Positions 3,203-10,234 of a stretch of DNA of 64,000 nucleotides are shown here, piece after piece. A model generated the notes under the pieces. That model was not told the DNA's origin and made no database searches. It saw only the letters and a program-made list of their open reading frames with translations. Position 1 is the stretch's first letter. Each line of letters opens with the position of its first letter. This DNA comes from Natronomonas gomsonensis (GTDB taxonomy: Archaea > Halobacteriota > Halobacteria > Halobacteriales > Haloarculaceae). The translations under genes were made by a program, and so were the position numbers. The DNA lies in NCBI RefSeq assembly GCF_024300825.1, contig NZ_CP101323.1:1798001-1862000 (forward strand), written 5' to 3'.

Positions 3203-4753
3203 CTATTCGAAGTCCTCCAACTCGAACTTCTGGACCTTCCCGGTCGTCGTCCGCGGGAGTTCGTCGACGAAGTTGACCTCCCGTGGGTGTTTGTACGCCG
3301 CGAGGTTCTCGAGGGCGTACTCCTTGATTTCCTCCGCGGTCACCTCGGCGTCGGGTCGCTTGACGACGAAGGCGGTGACCGTCTCCCCGCGGCGCTCGTC
3401 GGGGACGCCGACGACGGCGGCGTCGGCGATATCGGGGTGTTCGAACAGCAACTCCTCGACTTCACGGGGATAGACGTTGTAGCCGCCCGTGACTATCATG
3501 TGCTTTTCGCGGTCGACAATGAAGAAGAAGCCGTCCTCGTCGTAGTAGCCGAGGTCGCCGGTGTGGAACCAGCGGGTGCCGTTTTCATGGGTGAACGCCT
3601 CCTCGTTCGCGCCCGGGCGGTTGTAGTACTCCTTCATCACGTTCGGCCCGGAGACGACGATTTCGCCGACCACGTCGTCGAGTGCCGTCTCGTCGTCGAC
3701 GGGGCCGCGCTCGACGGGGTCGACCTCCTCGAAGTTGTGGTCGACGACCTTCGACTCGACGCCGGGCAGCGGCTTGCCGATGGAACCGGGACGGCGGTCG
3801 TCCGGCCGGTTGGCGTGGGTGACCGGTGCCGTCTCGGTCAGGCCGTACCCTTCCATGAGGTCGGGTTCGAACGTCTCCTCGAACTGTCGCATGACCTCGA
3901 GCGGGAGGCTGGAGCCGCCGGCGTTGGCGAACCGAACCGAGGCGAGGTCGTACTCTTCGGCCGCGGGGTGGTTCACGAGGTCGTTGAACATCGCGGGAAC
4001 GCCGTGGAACAGTGTGATACCTTCCGACTCGACGAGTTCCAGCGCGGCCTCGGCGTCCCACTCGGCCATCGGCCAGTAGCTGCCGCCCTCGTACAGCGTC
4101 GCCAGCATCGTCACCGTCATCCCGTAGATGTGGAACAGCGGGAGAACGCCGAGCATCTTGTCGTCGTCGTAGATGCCGTCGTGAATCTTCGGGGAGGCAC
4201 GCGCCTCGAAGGCGAGGTTCCGGTGGGTCAGAAGGACGCCCTTCGGGGTGCCGGTCGTCCCGGAGGTGTACGGCTGACACGCCACGTCGTCGTCGTCGCG
4301 GTCGACGACATCGAGTTCCTCGTCGGCGAGGAACGCATCGAATTCGACGGCGCCGTCGGCGTCGCCGCCGACGCTGACGATGGTGTGAACGTCGGTGTCG
4401 TCCTGTACCTCCTGGACCTGCGGGACGAGGTCTGCGAGGGCGACGACGGCCGTCGCGCCGCTGTCGCCGAGCAGGTGGCTGATTTCGCGGGACTTGTACT
4501 GGGGATTCATCGGGACGACGATGCCGCCGGCCCGGAGAATCCCGTGGAAGGCGATTACGTACTGCGGGAGGTTCGGGAGATAGACGCCGACGCGGTCGCC
4601 GGGTTCGACACCCGAATCCGCGAGAGCTTTGGCGAATCGACCGGTCTGTGCCCAGAACTCGGCGTAACTGAGTTCTTGGCCCCGGAAGCCGATTGCCGTG
4701 GCCTCGGGCATCTCCGCGGCGCGCTGTTCGATGTCGGCAAGCAGATTCGTCAT
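3203..4753 (-). CDS. Long-chain acyl-CoA synthetase (AMP-forming)
   Basis: A 516-residue ANL-superfamily adenylate-forming enzyme that activates a fatty or other carboxylic acid with ATP and CoA. The AMP-binding P-loop is visible as YTSGTTGTPKGVLLTHRN, the adenine-site motif as EGYGLTETAPVTHANR, the hinge as TGDLGYYDEDGFFFIVDR, and the C-terminal catalytic Lys region as PRTTTGKVQKFEL. The ATG at 4753 (MTNLLADIEQ) is chosen; 14 extra residues upstream look non-coding. Length fits the family. It stands alone, tail-to-tail with the TetR gene. The chain length of the substrate cannot be read from the sequence. Confidence 0.92.
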   Translation of the reverse strand: MTNLLADIEQRAAEMPEATAIGFRGQELSYAEFWAQTGRFAKALADSGVEPGDRVGVYLPNLPQYVIAFHGILRAGGIVVPMNPQYKSREISHLLGDSGATAVVALADLVPQVQEVQDDTDVHTIVSVGGDADGAVEFDAFLADEELDVVDRDDDDVACQPYTSGTTGTPKGVLLTHRNLAFEARASPKIHDGIYDDDKMLGVLPLFHIYGMTVTMLATLYEGGSYWPMAEWDAEAALELVESEGITLFHGVPAMFNDLVNHPAAEEYDLASVRFANAGGSSLPLEVMRQFEETFEPDLMEGYGLTETAPVTHANRPDDRRPGSIGKPLPGVESKVVDHNFEEVDPVERGPVDDETALDDVVGEIVVSGPNVMKEYYNRPGANEEAFTHENGTRWFHTGDLGYYDEDGFFFIVDREKHMIVTGGYNVYPREVEELLFEHPDIADAAVVGVPDERRGETVTAFVVKRPDAEVTAEEIKEYALENLAAYKHPREVNFVDELPRTTTGKVQKFELEDFE

Positions 4754-4811: not shown

Positions 4812-6665
4812 CTACGTCGGCGATGACCCCTCGGCCGCCGGAAGTCGAAGAACCACCGTCGCGCCGCGGTCGGCGGGGTTTCGGATGTCGAGTTGCCCGC
4901 CAGCGTTCATCACTGCCCACCGAATCAGCCACAGCGTGACGCCCTGAAGGTGCTCTAGCGGGCGTTCCGCGCCGCTGGCCAGCGCCCGCCGTTCGCGTTC
5001 GGAGAACCCGGGCCCGTCGTCGTTGACACGGAGTTCGACCCACTCCCGGTCGTCCGTGTCATCGACCTCGATGTCCACTCGGGGGGTGGGTACGTCCGTG
5101 TGTTTGACCGCGTTCTCGACGAGATGTTCCAGACAGAGCCGAATCGTCGCGGGGCAGACTGCCGGGGAGGCTCCGGGCGCCGAGATGTCGATGTCGGCGT
5201 CGGGGTAACTCTCGCGGAGTTCCTCGCCCACCTCGCGGACGAACGCCGAAAGGTCGAGTTCCTGTGTCTGTGGTTTGGTGGGGTCGATGCTTCGGTTGAA
5301 CGCGCGGGCCGCGTCGGCAATCGCCAGCAGGTCCGACGCCGCGGTATCGATGTCGTCGGCTATCGCCGCCACCTCCTCGTCGCCGTCGTCTTCGAGGAGT
5401 TCCGCCAGTCCCGTGACGATGTTCAGTTTATTACGGATGTTGTGTCGGAAGATTCGGTCGAGAACCGACAGGCGGTTTTGGTACTCCTGGATTCGCGTGA
5501 TGTCACGACTGACAGCGATGATTCGCTCGCCGTAGTCGTCGGTCGCCTCCAGCCGTTGAAATCGGAACTGGAAGACGGTCGAGTTCCCGTCGGGGCCGGC
5601 CGTCGTGAGCTCCGCCGTTTGGGAGTTCCCGCCGCCCCGAACCGCGGCTATCGCCGTTCGCAACTTCGCGGCCTGTTTGCCCTCGAATAGGTTCGGAGCG
5701 GGCATTTTCACCGGAATCTCCCCATCGACGCCGAAGGCGGCTTTGGCTGCCGCGTTCGTCTCCACGATACGACCGTTTACGTCGAGCACCAAAACCGGGT
5801 CCTCGGTGGCCTCGAATATTCGTAGATGCTGTTCTAGCAACCGCTCCCGTTGCTTACGCTCGGTAACGTCACGTTGGAAGCCGAGGAAGTGCGTCACCTT
5901 GCCGTCCTCACCACGCACGGGCATGATATCGAGGTCGTTCCAGAACTGCTCGCCGGAGCGCCGGTAGTTGCGGATTTCGACCGACACCGGCCGCTCGTCA
6001 GCCAGCGCCGACCGCATCTTATCGACGGTCGCCTCCTCGGTGTTCTCGCCCTGCAGGAACCGACAGTTCCGGCCGATGACTTCCTCGCGGTCGTACCCGG
6101 TGGTTTCGAGGAACCCCTCGTTGACGTAGACGAGCGGTAGGTCGTCTTCGCTCGCGTCGGCGATGCTGATGCCGATACCGGCGCCGTCTATCGCGCGCTC
6201 GTACAGTTCGAGTTCCCGCTGGCGCTGCCGTGACTCCACCGAGTGTTCTCGCGTCGCCAACAGCCCATCGATTCGGGAGCGAATCGCTTGCCTCGGCGCC
6301 GGAATGGGCTGAATGCCGTCGAGCAACTCACCGACAGAATCGCCGTGGCGTCGCCACGCCTCGTCGACGGAGTCGGTCGTCAGCAGCAACACCGGCGCCG
6401 TGGCCGGGCGTTCGCGTTCTTTCCACGCCGACAGCGCCTCGCGAAACGCCGCGAGGCCGTCGGCATCGACGATACAGAGGTCGGTCCGCTCCGGAATCGG
6501 GTCGGCTACGTCCGTCACCTCGAACGTCGAGAGGAGCGATTCCAACAGTTCTCTGTCCCGTGGTTGGGCGACGCCGAGGGCGATTCGCGGCGTCCGCTCG
6601 GCGAACCACTCGCCGCTGTCGGAGCGCCGATGCGTCCGCGGCGACGAGCCATCCAAGGGTGCCAT
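4812..6665 (-). CDS. LOV-PAS sensor histidine kinase with N-terminal receiver-like domain
   Basis: A 617-residue cytoplasmic kinase. Residues 25-140 resemble a degenerate response-regulator (HTR-like) fold. Residues 150-272 form a PAS domain of LOV type: GRNCRFLQG with Cys201, the residue that forms the flavin adduct in LOV photoreceptors, and later NYRRSGEQFWNDL, which fits the flavin-contact strand. A second PAS covers about 280-395. The H-box is FRHNIRNKLNI (His408), the N-box ENAVKH (Asn518) and the G-box DDGPGF, so kinase motifs look intact. The start ATG overlaps the KaiC-like stop as TGATG, so the genes are translationally coupled. Blue-light sensing feeding a KaiC-like ATPase is inference. 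No transmembrane segment is seen. Confidence 0.88.
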   Translation of the reverse strand: MAPLDGSSPRTHRRSDSGEWFAERTPRIALGVAQPRDRELLESLLSTFEVTDVADPIPERTDLCIVDADGLAAFREALSAWKERERPATAPVLLLTTDSVDEAWRRHGDSVGELLDGIQPIPAPRQAIRSRIDGLLATREHSVESRQRQRELELYERAIDGAGIGISIADASEDDLPLVYVNEGFLETTGYDREEVIGRNCRFLQGENTEEATVDKMRSALADERPVSVEIRNYRRSGEQFWNDLDIMPVRGEDGKVTHFLGFQRDVTERKQRERLLEQHLRIFEATEDPVLVLDVNGRIVETNAAAKAAFGVDGEIPVKMPAPNLFEGKQAAKLRTAIAAVRGGGNSQTAELTTAGPDGNSTVFQFRFQRLEATDDYGERIIAVSRDITRIQEYQNRLSVLDRIFRHNIRNKLNIVTGLAELLEDDGDEEVAAIADDIDTAASDLLAIADAARAFNRSIDPTKPQTQELDLSAFVREVGEELRESYPDADIDISAPGASPAVCPATIRLCLEHLVENAVKHTDVPTPRVDIEVDDTDDREWVELRVNDDGPGFSERERRALASGAERPLEHLQGVTLWLIRWAVMNAGGQLDIRNPADRGATVVLRLPAAEGSSPT

Positions 6666-8119
6666 CAGCCCGACTCGTCGGTTCGCTCGGGGATGCCGGT
6701 GAGAATGCCGCGCATCCCGGTCAGTTTCGGCCCGACCTCGACGCCATCTTCGGATATCGACATTTCACGAAGCGACTGCTCGAAGTCACCGAAGCGCTTC
6801 TTCAACACGCCGACGGTCTTCCGAATCCCGCCGTCGATTTCCATATATCGGAGGAAGACGATGTTGTCGGCGAGGTAGCTAATCTGCTCGTCGGTCGCCG
6901 AGAGGTCGCCGGTGATGTTCTCGACCTCCTCGAGGAGGAGGACGGTGACGCCCATCCGCTTGAGGTAGCGACACAGCGCGTGGAGTTCCCGGGTGAGTTC
7001 GGCCTGGGAATCATCGCCACGAAGGCCGAGTCGGTAGCCGGTGATGCCGTCAATCATGACGATTTGGGCATCCTCCTCTTCGACGGCCGTCCGGACGTGA
7101 TGGGCGAACTCGTCGGGACTCTGTGCGAGTGACTCGATTTCCTCGATTCGAACGGCACCCGTCTCGACGAGCGATTCGATGTCGATATTGATTTCACCGG
7201 ACCGGTGCAGATAATCGGACTCTAGTTCCTCGAAGAGGTAGCCGAACGCCTGTTCGCCGCGGTTGCCGGCGGCTTCCAGAAACAGCGACCCGAGTGTCGT
7301 CTTGCCGGCACCCGACGGTCCGGAGAGGACGGTGACCGACCCTCGTTCGATACCGCCGCCGAGAAGCCGGTCGAGTTCCGGAAGCCCCGAGGAGAGTTGG
7401 TCCCGGGTGTGTTCGCGATGGAAATTCCCGGGGGCGAGTTTCGGATACACGCGACCGCCATCGTCGGACCGGATGCGGTAGGTGTGTCGGCCGTCGGCGG
7501 AGCCCGAACCGCGGAACTTCGTCACTTCGAGCGAGCGGTGGTCGGTCGTCCGCTGGATTTCAATCGTCAAATCGCCGAGGAACTTGAGGTCCTGTTCGAC
7601 CCGACCACTCGTCGGTTGGGTCGTACACAGCGTCGTCGTCCCGCGCTCTTTGAGTTCGTTGATGAGCGAGGAGATGTTGCGGCGGAACTGGTACTCGTCG
7701 GGCAGCAGCGACCGGAGTTCCGACAGCGGGTCGATGACGAGCCGCTCCGGTGATTCCTCGTCGATGGCCGTCGCGATGCGCTCCAGTAAGTCCTCTCCCT
7801 CGACCTCGTCGGCCGGGAACACCGTATAGGAGTCCTCCGAGAAGAACCGCTCGCCGCCGGCGCTGAGGTCGAGTATCGTCACGTCCGAGAGGTCGATGCC
7901 GAGCAGTTCGGCGTTCCGTCTGATGTCGGCCTCCCGTTCCTCGAAGCCGATATAGAGACTCGCCCCGTCGGCCGCGGTGAGAAACTGCAAGGCGAGAACC
8001 GTCTTGCCCGTCCCCGGACCGCCGTTTATTATTCCCGTCTGGCCACTGAGAAAGCCACCCTGCAGCACCTCGTCCAAGCCCGGTGTACCTGACGGGACAC
8101 GCCGGTCATCGCTGTCCAT
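6665..8119 (-). CDS. KaiC-like ATPase with two RecA domains
   Basis: A 484-residue protein of the KaiC family with two complete RecA-type domains. Domain 1 has Walker A GGPGTGKT (33-40), paired glutamates in GFEER (60-61) and Walker B LVIDPLSEL. Domain 2 has GPSGAGKT (266-273), LFEELE (296-297) and IVMIDGI. Length is near that of cyanobacterial KaiC (about 520), but there is no KaiB or KaiA here. Archaeal members usually act in signal transduction rather than as proven clocks. It is the first gene of a two-gene operon with the LOV kinase. An AT-rich promoter region lies directly upstream. Whether it has an autokinase site equivalent to the Ser/Thr pair of KaiC cannot be judged by eye. Confidence 0.9.
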   Translation of the reverse strand: MDSDDRRVPSGTPGLDEVLQGGFLSGQTGIINGGPGTGKTVLALQFLTAADGASLYIGFEEREADIRRNAELLGIDLSDVTILDLSAGGERFFSEDSYTVFPADEVEGEDLLERIATAIDEESPERLVIDPLSELRSLLPDEYQFRRNISSLINELKERGTTTLCTTQPTSGRVEQDLKFLGDLTIEIQRTTDHRSLEVTKFRGSGSADGRHTYRIRSDDGGRVYPKLAPGNFHREHTRDQLSSGLPELDRLLGGGIERGSVTVLSGPSGAGKTTLGSLFLEAAGNRGEQAFGYLFEELESDYLHRSGEINIDIESLVETGAVRIEEIESLAQSPDEFAHHVRTAVEEEDAQIVMIDGITGYRLGLRGDDSQAELTRELHALCRYLKRMGVTVLLLEEVENITGDLSATDEQISYLADNIVFLRYMEIDGGIRKTVGVLKKRFGDFEQSLREMSISEDGVEVGPKLTGMRGILTGIPERTDESG

Positions 8120-8281: not shown

Positions 8282-9007
8282 ATGCCCACCGTTCAACTCG
8301 TTCGTCACGCCACGCTGCTCGTCACGTTGGGGGAGACGACGTTCCTCGTCGACCCGATGCTCGGCGAACCGGGCGACATCCCGCCGATTCCGAACACGCC
8401 CAACGACCGCGAGAACCCGCTCGTCGAACGCCCGGACGTCGACCTCACACACGACGCGGTCGTCGTCACCCACCGTCACCGCGACCACTTCGACGACGCC
8501 GCCCGGGAGTTCCTCGACCGCGAGGTACCGCTGTTCTGTCATCCCGAGGAGGCCGACGAGTTCCTCGAGGAGGGCTTCGAGGACGTCCGACCGCTCGATA
8601 TCCACCACTCGTTCGGCGACGTGATACTCGAACCGACGCCGGCCCGCCACGGCCACGGCGAGTTGGCAGAGAAGATGGCGCCCGTCCTCGGCGTCGTCTT
8701 CGAGGGCGCGGAGTCGCTGTATCTCGCCGGCGACACAGTCTGGTACGACGCCGTCGCCGAAACCATCGATGCCTACGACTTCGACGCCGTCGTCGTCAAC
8801 GCCGGCGGGGCCCGGTTCGTCGAGGGCGAACCCATCACGATGGACGAAGACGACGTTGCGTCGGTCCGGGCGGCCGTCGACGACGACGTGCCCGTTATCG
8901 CCGACCACATGGACGCTATCAACCACTGCTTGGTCACGCGGGCCGACCTGCGAGCGGCCGTCGAGGGCGTGACGATACCTGAAGATGGTGAGACGGTCGA
9001 GTTCTGA
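8282..9007 (+). CDS. Metallo-beta-lactamase-fold hydrolase (UlaG-like)
   Basis: A 241-residue cytoplasmic metal-dependent hydrolase. The metal motif THRHRDHFD supplies HxHxDH; further ligands are likely in HGHGE, AGDT and ADHMD. The layout is that of the UlaG/YtnP-like subgroup (MBL-fold Zn-dependent hydrolases) that often act on lactones or phosphodiesters. A GGAGGT lies directly against the ATG at 8282. The gene stands between the KaiC-like operon and the poly-gamma-glutamate genes, with no overlap to either, so context does not reveal its substrate. Confidence 0.88.
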   Translation: MPTVQLVRHATLLVTLGETTFLVDPMLGEPGDIPPIPNTPNDRENPLVERPDVDLTHDAVVVTHRHRDHFDDAAREFLDREVPLFCHPEEADEFLEEGFEDVRPLDIHHSFGDVILEPTPARHGHGELAEKMAPVLGVVFEGAESLYLAGDTVWYDAVAETIDAYDFDAVVVNAGGARFVEGEPITMDEDDVASVRAAVDDDVPVIADHMDAINHCLVTRADLRAAVEGVTIPEDGETVEF

Positions 9008-9064: not shown

Positions 9065-10234
9065 ATGCTGGTGGCGGCGGGGATGATGGTGTTCGGCGTG
9101 GCTCTCGTGGCAGCCATCTCACAAACGACGGGCCTCCGGGTCGGCGGCGTGATGGTCGTCCCGTTGGTAGCGGTGTACACGTTCCGAGAGCTGTGGACGC
9201 CGGTCGTCTTTCTTGGGGGTGCGGTCGCTGCCTTCACCGCGCTGTACGCCGTCCGGGAGTTCACGCTGTGGTACGGGCGCGAACCGCTGTTGGTAGCAAT
9301 CGCGACCGGCGCACTCGCCAGCATCGCCGCCGTCCTCGCAGTGGACCGACTCACGACGACAACACTGGTCTTCCGCGATGCCGAAATCGTCGGGAGCATC
9401 TTCCCCGGTATCGCCGCCTACAACCTGATGCGCATCGACGCCGACCGCCGACGCGTCGACCTCCTCGTTGCGGTCGGGACGTACCTCGCGGTCGTCGCCG
9501 TCGGTGTCGTCGGATTGGTCGTTTCGGCCGTCGTCGAACCCGGGATACCGCCGGTCGTCTTCGCCGAGGGTGTCCCCGCGGTGGAGTTGCTCGGACTCGA
9601 CGCGCCACGAGGTCGGTTCCCGCGTGCCGTCCCGCAGGCGGTCGTCGTCTCGCTCGTTCTCGCCGACCTCGTCGTTTACGAGGGCGTCCGCCGACGGTAC
9701 GACATCTCGCTGGCTGGCGTCGTGTTGGTGCCGCTGTTGGCGGTGTTTTCGGCGCGACTCGGCGTGGCGTTTTTCCTCTATGCGCTGTTCGCGACGGCGA
9801 CGTTCCTCGTCACGACGGGGGCGTACTGGTCGATGCTGCTGTACGGGCGAAACTTACTGGCGGTCGCTCTCGTGGTCGGGACGGGGCTTGCCATCGGCGC
9901 CGCGCTGTCGAACCCCAACATTCCGGGGCTGTTGTTGCTGTTCGTCGGGCTGTTTGCGGGTGTCGGCTCGTACAACCTCCATCGGACCGCACCGCCGGTC
10001 CGCAGTGCCAGCATCTCGCTCAGTGCGGGACTGTTCGTTCTCATGTACGGTGCGCTGTTGGTCGTCATCTCGCCCGAAGCCAGCGGCCTCGCGTCGCCGT
10101 TGCGGTGGTACCACGTCGCCATCGGTGCGGCAGCGCTCGCCGTCGCTGCTCGGGACCTGTATCGACTCGAACGGGAGCGCGCCGACGGGGACGCAATCGA
10201 GGCGGCGTCGGTGTTCTCGGAGGTGTCGGGATGA
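9065..10234 (+). CDS. pgsC: Poly-gamma-glutamate export/synthesis membrane protein PgsC, tandem duplicate
   Basis: A 389-residue polytopic membrane protein of the PgsC/CapC family, which forms the membrane part of poly-gamma-glutamate synthase. Bacterial CapC is about 150 residues; here two CapC-like halves are fused. LWYGREPLLVAIATG and IFPGIAAYNLMR in the first half match LLYGRNLLAVALVVGTG and LFAGVGSYNLHR in the second. About ten hydrophobic helices are visible. The stop overlaps the PgsB-like ATG by four bases (ATGA), so the two proteins are made together. No PgsA or PgsE is nearby. The polymer would be a surface capsule or an osmoprotective slime. Confidence 0.82.
   Translation: MLVAAGMMVFGVALVAAISQTTGLRVGGVMVVPLVAVYTFRELWTPVVFLGGAVAAFTALYAVREFTLWYGREPLLVAIATGALASIAAVLAVDRLTTTTLVFRDAEIVGSIFPGIAAYNLMRIDADRRRVDLLVAVGTYLAVVAVGVVGLVVSAVVEPGIPPVVFAEGVPAVELLGLDAPRGRFPRAVPQAVVVSLVLADLVVYEGVRRRYDISLAGVVLVPLLAVFSARLGVAFFLYALFATATFLVTTGAYWSMLLYGRNLLAVALVVGTGLAIGAALSNPNIPGLLLLFVGLFAGVGSYNLHRTAPPVRSASISLSAGLFVLMYGALLVVISPEASGLASPLRWYHVAIGAAALAVAARDLYRLERERADGDAIEAASVFSEVSG

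Follow-up and report, generated by a model that had tools for sequence, protein, structure and literature searches.

The two-domain KaiC-like ATPases of Halobacteria are almost always encoded beside a protein that carries a small, divergent receiver domain, here called pRec (pseudo-receiver). Based on comparative sequence analysis, we consider it probable that pRec docks on the CI ring of KaiC and couples the state of KaiC to exchangeable sensor and output modules, in the present case a LOV domain. The starting point was a 64,000-nucleotide stretch of the Natronomonas gomsonensis genome, referred to as the window, for which the original prediction had proposed a unit of a LOV photoreceptor-type kinase and a KaiC-like ATPase. 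That reading had overlooked residues 28-149 of the kinase, which form the divergent receiver domain, and a second such operon in the same genome.

Table 1. Features of the kaiC-kinase gene pair in the window (positions are those of the window).
Feature	Position	Strand	Evidence or remark
Two-domain KaiC-like ATPase gene	6665..8119	-	484 aa; Pfam KaiC (ATPase PF06745) E 2.8e-64, two stretches
CI Walker A GGPGTGKT (residues 33-40)	8000..8023	-	K39 in 129/129 homologues
CI catalytic Glu pair E60-E61	7937..7942	-	E60 103/129, E61 128/129
CII Walker A GPSGAGKTT (residues 267-275)	7295..7321	-	K273 129/129
CII catalytic Glu pair E297-E298	7226..7231	-	E297 124/129, E298 129/129
KaiC S414-Y415, positions of S. 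elongatus S431-T432	6875..6880	-	register from alignment to PDB KaiC
TGATG	6663..6667	-	kaiC stop TGA (6667-6665) and kinase start ATG (6665-6663), one base common
Sensor histidine kinase gene, pRec-LOV-PAS-DHp-CA	4812..6665	-	617 aa
pRec, pseudo-receiver domain (residues 28-149), proposed KaiC-docking domain	6219..6584	-	AlphaFold, Foldseek and kaiC linkage
LOV domain (residues 150-272)	5850..6218	-	PAS_9 2.5e-31; YtvA best match in PDB, E 5e-41
LOV adduct cysteine Cys201	6063..6065	-	GRNCRFLQG
Second PAS domain, not LOV (about residues 284-390)	5496..5816	-	second PAS stretch; strands and helices in model
Phospho-acceptor His408, H-box RHNIRNKLN	5442..5444	-	invariant in alignment A2
Catalytic ATP-binding domain (HATPase_c)	4830..5267	-	PF02518 9.9e-14
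Degenerate G2 box GVTLWL (residues 575-580)	4926..4943	-	GLGLWF in the paralogue

As listed in Table 1, both reading frames were found with the single-base overlap that had been described, and no response regulator is encoded next to the pair. A gene for an AMP-binding acyl-CoA synthetase (3203-4753, minus strand) lies 58 bp 3' of the kinase gene on the same strand and may be co-transcribed. On the other side, kaiC is divergent from a gene for a metallo-beta-lactamase-fold protein (8282-9007, plus strand), which is followed by a gene for a CapC-type (poly-gamma-glutamate/capsule) protein (9065-10234, plus strand). The assignment of the ATPase was borne out, as solved KaiC chains in the PDB align with its residues 7-480, almost the whole length, and Walker A motifs, Walker B Asp residues and Glu pairs are present in both RecA-like ATPase domains and kept across the 129 homologues, which places the protein in the two-domain KaiC superfamily. 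The protein shares 96% identity with a KaiC recorded for N. gomsonensis. Its score against TIGR02655 (circadian clock protein KaiC) is 159 bits, below the cut-off of 546 bits.

A light-entrained circadian or diurnal timer that runs on KaiC alone would fit with the two retained ATPase sites, with Ser at the S431-equivalent position in 128 of the 129 homologues and Thr or Ser at the T426-equivalent position, and with the cir genes of Haloferax volcanii, whose light-dependent expression oscillates under light/dark cycles (PMC3941300). Nevertheless, we regard such a timer as highly improbable. The S431/T432 phosphorylation pair of clock KaiC is incomplete in the window protein, with S414 present and Y415 at the T432 position, and at the latter position 111 of the 129 homologues have Tyr and not one has Thr, so the cyanobacterial Ser/Thr cycle cannot run as such. 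The lack of a nearby KaiB, pointed out in the original prediction, extends to the whole class as sampled here, since a search of 194 Halobacteria genomes gave no KaiB match over the family cut-off. KaiA has been reported in cyanobacteria only (PMC5520375). By its defining features, the absence of KaiB and a T432 position that is never Thr, the system is thus not a KaiABC clock, and KaiC may work here as an ATPase-driven switch.

The flavin-adduct motif of the kinase was present as described. Among 14 relatives (alignment A2), N200 and C201 are nearly invariant, and the flavin-contact residues N233, N243 and Q264, aligned with YtvA, are invariant. With GxNCRFLQ plus Asn, Asn and Gln, the domain is a probable LOV photoreceptor at the motif level, and flavin photochemistry is predicted. 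The matches to the NCBIfam equivalogs YtvA_fam (165 versus 250 bits) and BluLightHisKinLov (149 versus 450 bits) stay below the cut-offs and cover the LOV region only. The H-, N- and G-boxes had been called intact, and this holds for the H-box, the N-box (VENAVKH) and the G1 box (DDGPGF), but the second G-box reads GVTLW in place of GLGLW in the window kinase and two close Natronomonas orthologues. This degenerate G2 box may weaken the kinase output in the window clade.

Residues 28-149 of the kinase matched no Pfam profile at a threshold as loose as E 0.1. An AlphaFold (AF2) model of this region, built from an alignment of 42 such domains, had a pLDDT of 95.4 and a pTM of 0.89, and when used as a Foldseek query, the top structures were mostly response-regulator receivers, with TM scores up to 0.72 and none with E <1e-3. 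The receiver Lys position is unconserved and the usual acidic pair is mostly gone, while the phospho-acceptor position is Asp in 94% of the sequences, two Pro positions are conserved at 99-100%, and many of the domains have a DLC motif. pRec therefore resembles a receiver fold without the Response_reg sequence profile. A SasA-type, thioredoxin-like N-terminal KaiC-binding domain was not seen, since the N-terminal model matches receivers.

A paralogous KaiC-LOV-kinase operon is present in the same genome (C1:188028), in which a kaiC, coding for a protein 46% identical to the window KaiC, is separated by a gap of 2 bp from the gene for an 859-aa pRec-LOV-PAS(x3)-kinase with a GRNCRFLQ motif. This genome has four strict LOV motifs, two of them in the two KaiC partners; the remaining two LOV-motif proteins (G000:C1:1221140 and 1986593; L018 and L017) lie outside KaiC operons. 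The pRec profile separated three true pRec domains in this genome (95-110 bits) from the remaining receivers (<=28 bits). The third strong pRec protein is a pRec-PAS-kinase (L186 4766-6283, G000:C1:1735912), which is located away from a two-domain kaiC.

Two-domain KaiC was detected at E<1e-60 in 133 of the 194 Halobacteria genomes. After retrieval of 120 further loci, 129 two-domain kaiC genes were analysed in all. A profile search located a receiver-type domain at <=700 bp from 127 of these genes. In 107 cases the domain belongs to the gene that immediately follows kaiC on the same strand, and in 20 to a gene that diverges from kaiC head to head; the two kaiC genes without a partner are L156 and L174. 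At nine loci (L070, L071, L078, L117, L130, L143, L153, L157 and L168) partners were present although the kinase/LOV query had not matched them. Tandem pRec-kinase genes behind one kaiC occur at L095, L097, L098, L111, L112 and L131-L133, and in another genome of the genus (G037; L190 5783-6826) a kaiC remnant with most of its middle deleted lies beside a pRec-LOV-kinase with all domains detected. The KaiC-LOV-kinase pair recurs in many genera of haloarchaea, which answers the objection that it might be peculiar to this genome. The survey, together with the second operon, also led us to reject chance juxtaposition of the two genes.

Because the receiver-like profile was trained on the same survey loci, independent checks matter. 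A genome-wide search of 59 genomes yielded 61 strong pRec domains, of which 52 adjoin kaiC, and 45 of the 47 kaiC genes have a pRec, a count that includes three kaiC positions added from a separate search. Genomes that lack this type of KaiC were mostly without pRec, and the co-occurrence of KaiC and pRec gave a Fisher p of about 7e-10, a value that ignores relatedness. The nine strong pRec proteins away from a full kaiC include one in the Natronomonas genome studied here. Outside Halobacteria there were six strong matches, all in one other family (f14) of the phylum, and three of these six sit directly behind a KaiC ORF (L210, L213 and L215); KaiC is single-domain in L210 and L213.

What follows pRec varies. 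Among the 129 loci, the kinase partners comprise 42 with a LOV domain that has the adduct Cys, 10 with a LOV domain that has Pro instead, and 60 other kinases, whereas eight partners are GAF-BAT-HTH_10 DNA-binding proteins and seven have no recognised output, five of them stand-alone receivers. Stand-alone receivers directly after kaiC (L067, L120, L153 and L170) are more canonical, with the KP motif kept. Since the partners range from pRec-kinases that have no further sensor to pRec-GAF-BAT-HTH_10 proteins, no part other than pRec is shared by almost all of them. Pro at the adduct-Cys position was seen at L024, L055, L057, L064, L139-L141, L162 and L163, and in these LOV domains flavin adduct formation is expected to be impossible. 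The strict GRNCRFLQ-type motif occurs 189 times in the 194 genomes, and a published census counts about 21 kinases per genome (PMC5847659). Set against each other, these numbers suggest that LOV is enriched among KaiC partners, although related loci are counted together here. The LOV(Cys) state requires at least eight changes on the KaiC tree, and LOV was rejected as the conserved element, as it is gained and lost on that tree and adds nothing once pRec is accounted for. The proposed unit of LOV kinase and KaiC is thus real, duplicated and widespread, but LOV is one of several exchangeable sensors and the constant part is pRec.

An ordinary LOV histidine kinase, in which light sets autophosphorylation and KaiC is a mere co-transcribed neighbour kept by operon inheritance, would be an alternative explanation of the pair: LOV kinases are common and function without KaiC, and most of the LOV motifs counted above lie away from kaiC. 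However, this leaves the retention of a pRec partner through changes of sensor and output unaccounted for, as well as the survival of the pair through a flip to the divergent arrangement and the matched paralogous pairs in 18 genomes described below. We therefore judge this explanation unlikely.

Pairwise distances of KaiC and pRec correlated at 0.71 over the 127 loci. When partners were swapped among same-genome paralogous loci (18 genomes), the maximum was 0.697 and none of 2000 swaps reached the observed value. For the 112 kinase loci, KaiC correlated better with pRec (0.765) than with the kinase domain (0.588), with partial correlations of 0.63 versus 0.23; for LOV-type partners alone, the two were about equal (0.88 for pRec and 0.87 for the kinase domain), and the divergence of the LOV domain in this subset carried no KaiC signal given pRec. 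At same-strand loci, the partial correlation of pRec was 0.495 with CI and 0.075 with CII (bootstrap difference 0.24-0.57), whereas the kinase domain had no CI preference (0.532 with CI, 0.518 with CII). In this arrangement CII is encoded nearer to pRec and CI is the DNA-distal half, so the signal, which is statistical in kind, argues against simple proximity, which is disfavoured as the sole cause of co-divergence, and points towards the CI ring. In cyanobacteria, CI likewise serves as the binding domain for SasA and KaiB (PMC6378743), and we infer that it is the docking site of pRec. Of note, joint inheritance can also yield co-divergence, and the loci are not independent.

In the proposed mechanism, a two-domain KaiC, presumably a hexamer, would be co-produced with its pRec-bearing partner, whose N-terminal pRec would rest on the CI ring. 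A long helix would tie pRec to an exchangeable sensor, here the LOV flavin photoreceptor and the second PAS domain, and the output would be exchangeable as well, a histidine kinase here and a BAT-HTH_10 DNA-binding region elsewhere. In the full-length kinase model, which with a pTM of 0.45 is trustworthy for domain boundaries only, a single long helix (125-160) joins pRec to LOV and the next helix runs into PAS and on to DHp; along such a path, light and the state of KaiC would converge on one signalling helix. A single protein would thereby combine two inputs, the LOV adduct formed in light and the state of KaiC (ATP hydrolysis or phosphorylation), and could pass on the outcome either by phosphotransfer from its His to a response regulator encoded elsewhere, or by altering KaiC itself.

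The main rival of this model is a reverse flow from LOV to KaiC, in which the kinase is weak, LOV-pRec mainly controls the ATPase or autokinase activity of KaiC, and KaiC is the output hub. The degenerate G2 box of the window clade would agree with this, as would degenerate G1 boxes in some neighbours and partners in which no output was recognised, such as the pRec-PAS protein of L143 and the stand-alone receivers of L067 and L153. On the other hand, the H-, N- and G1 boxes of the window kinase are intact, and 112 of the 127 partners end in a kinase. Moreover, at L100, L117, L130 and L168 pRec is the sole sensor of a kinase, so pRec, and through it presumably KaiC, is the only input in sight, which implies a flow from KaiC to the kinase. 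For these reasons we think the reverse flow unlikely and favour docking of pRec on KaiC with integration of both signals on the partner. In its broadest form, which we put forward more tentatively as a possibility close to even, pRec and KaiC together would constitute an archaeal input/output interface, in which CI is read without KaiB or SasA and LOV, PAS, GAF, kinase and DNA-binding modules are plugged on.

KaiC-like proteins are widespread in archaea, and in Haloferax they influence motility and cell form. According to one survey, the whole cyanobacterial KaiC output pathway is missing in Archaea (PMC5520375). As a small domain encoded beside almost all two-domain KaiC proteins of haloarchaea, pRec is a direct, testable candidate for the readout of KaiC, and its LOV versions offer a light handle on this readout; if the model is right, they are photoreceptors built straight into the KaiC partner.

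Makarova, Galperin and Koonin (mBio, 2017) reportedly predicted archaeal KaiC signalling hubs, in which KaiC-family ATPases are linked to input and output domains. Those hubs likewise combine KaiC with signalling domains, whereas here pRec is a near-constant companion of two-domain KaiC. In H. volcanii, cirC adjoins 'fixL' and cir expression is light-dependent, which is likewise a two-domain KaiC beside a haloarchaeal sensor kinase, while LOV, pRec and the generality of the pair are unreported in that paper (PMC3941300). The archaeal LOV histidine kinases of Lake Diamante have similar architectures (REC/PAS/GAF-kinase) and Pro variants at the Cys position, and KaiC is unmentioned in that study (PMC12202551). 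A literature search of incomplete coverage found no paper that links archaeal KaiC to LOV or to a pseudo-receiver; KaiC hubs and the position of cirC beside fixL have already been published, and the pRec rule appears to be new. In the cyanobacterial SasA-KaiC and CikA-KaiB systems, histidine kinases likewise read KaiC via a dedicated domain, and CikA has a pseudo-receiver. Compared to these, pRec is N-terminal and has a receiver instead of a thioredoxin fold, KaiB is absent, and the photoreceptor is part of the same chain.
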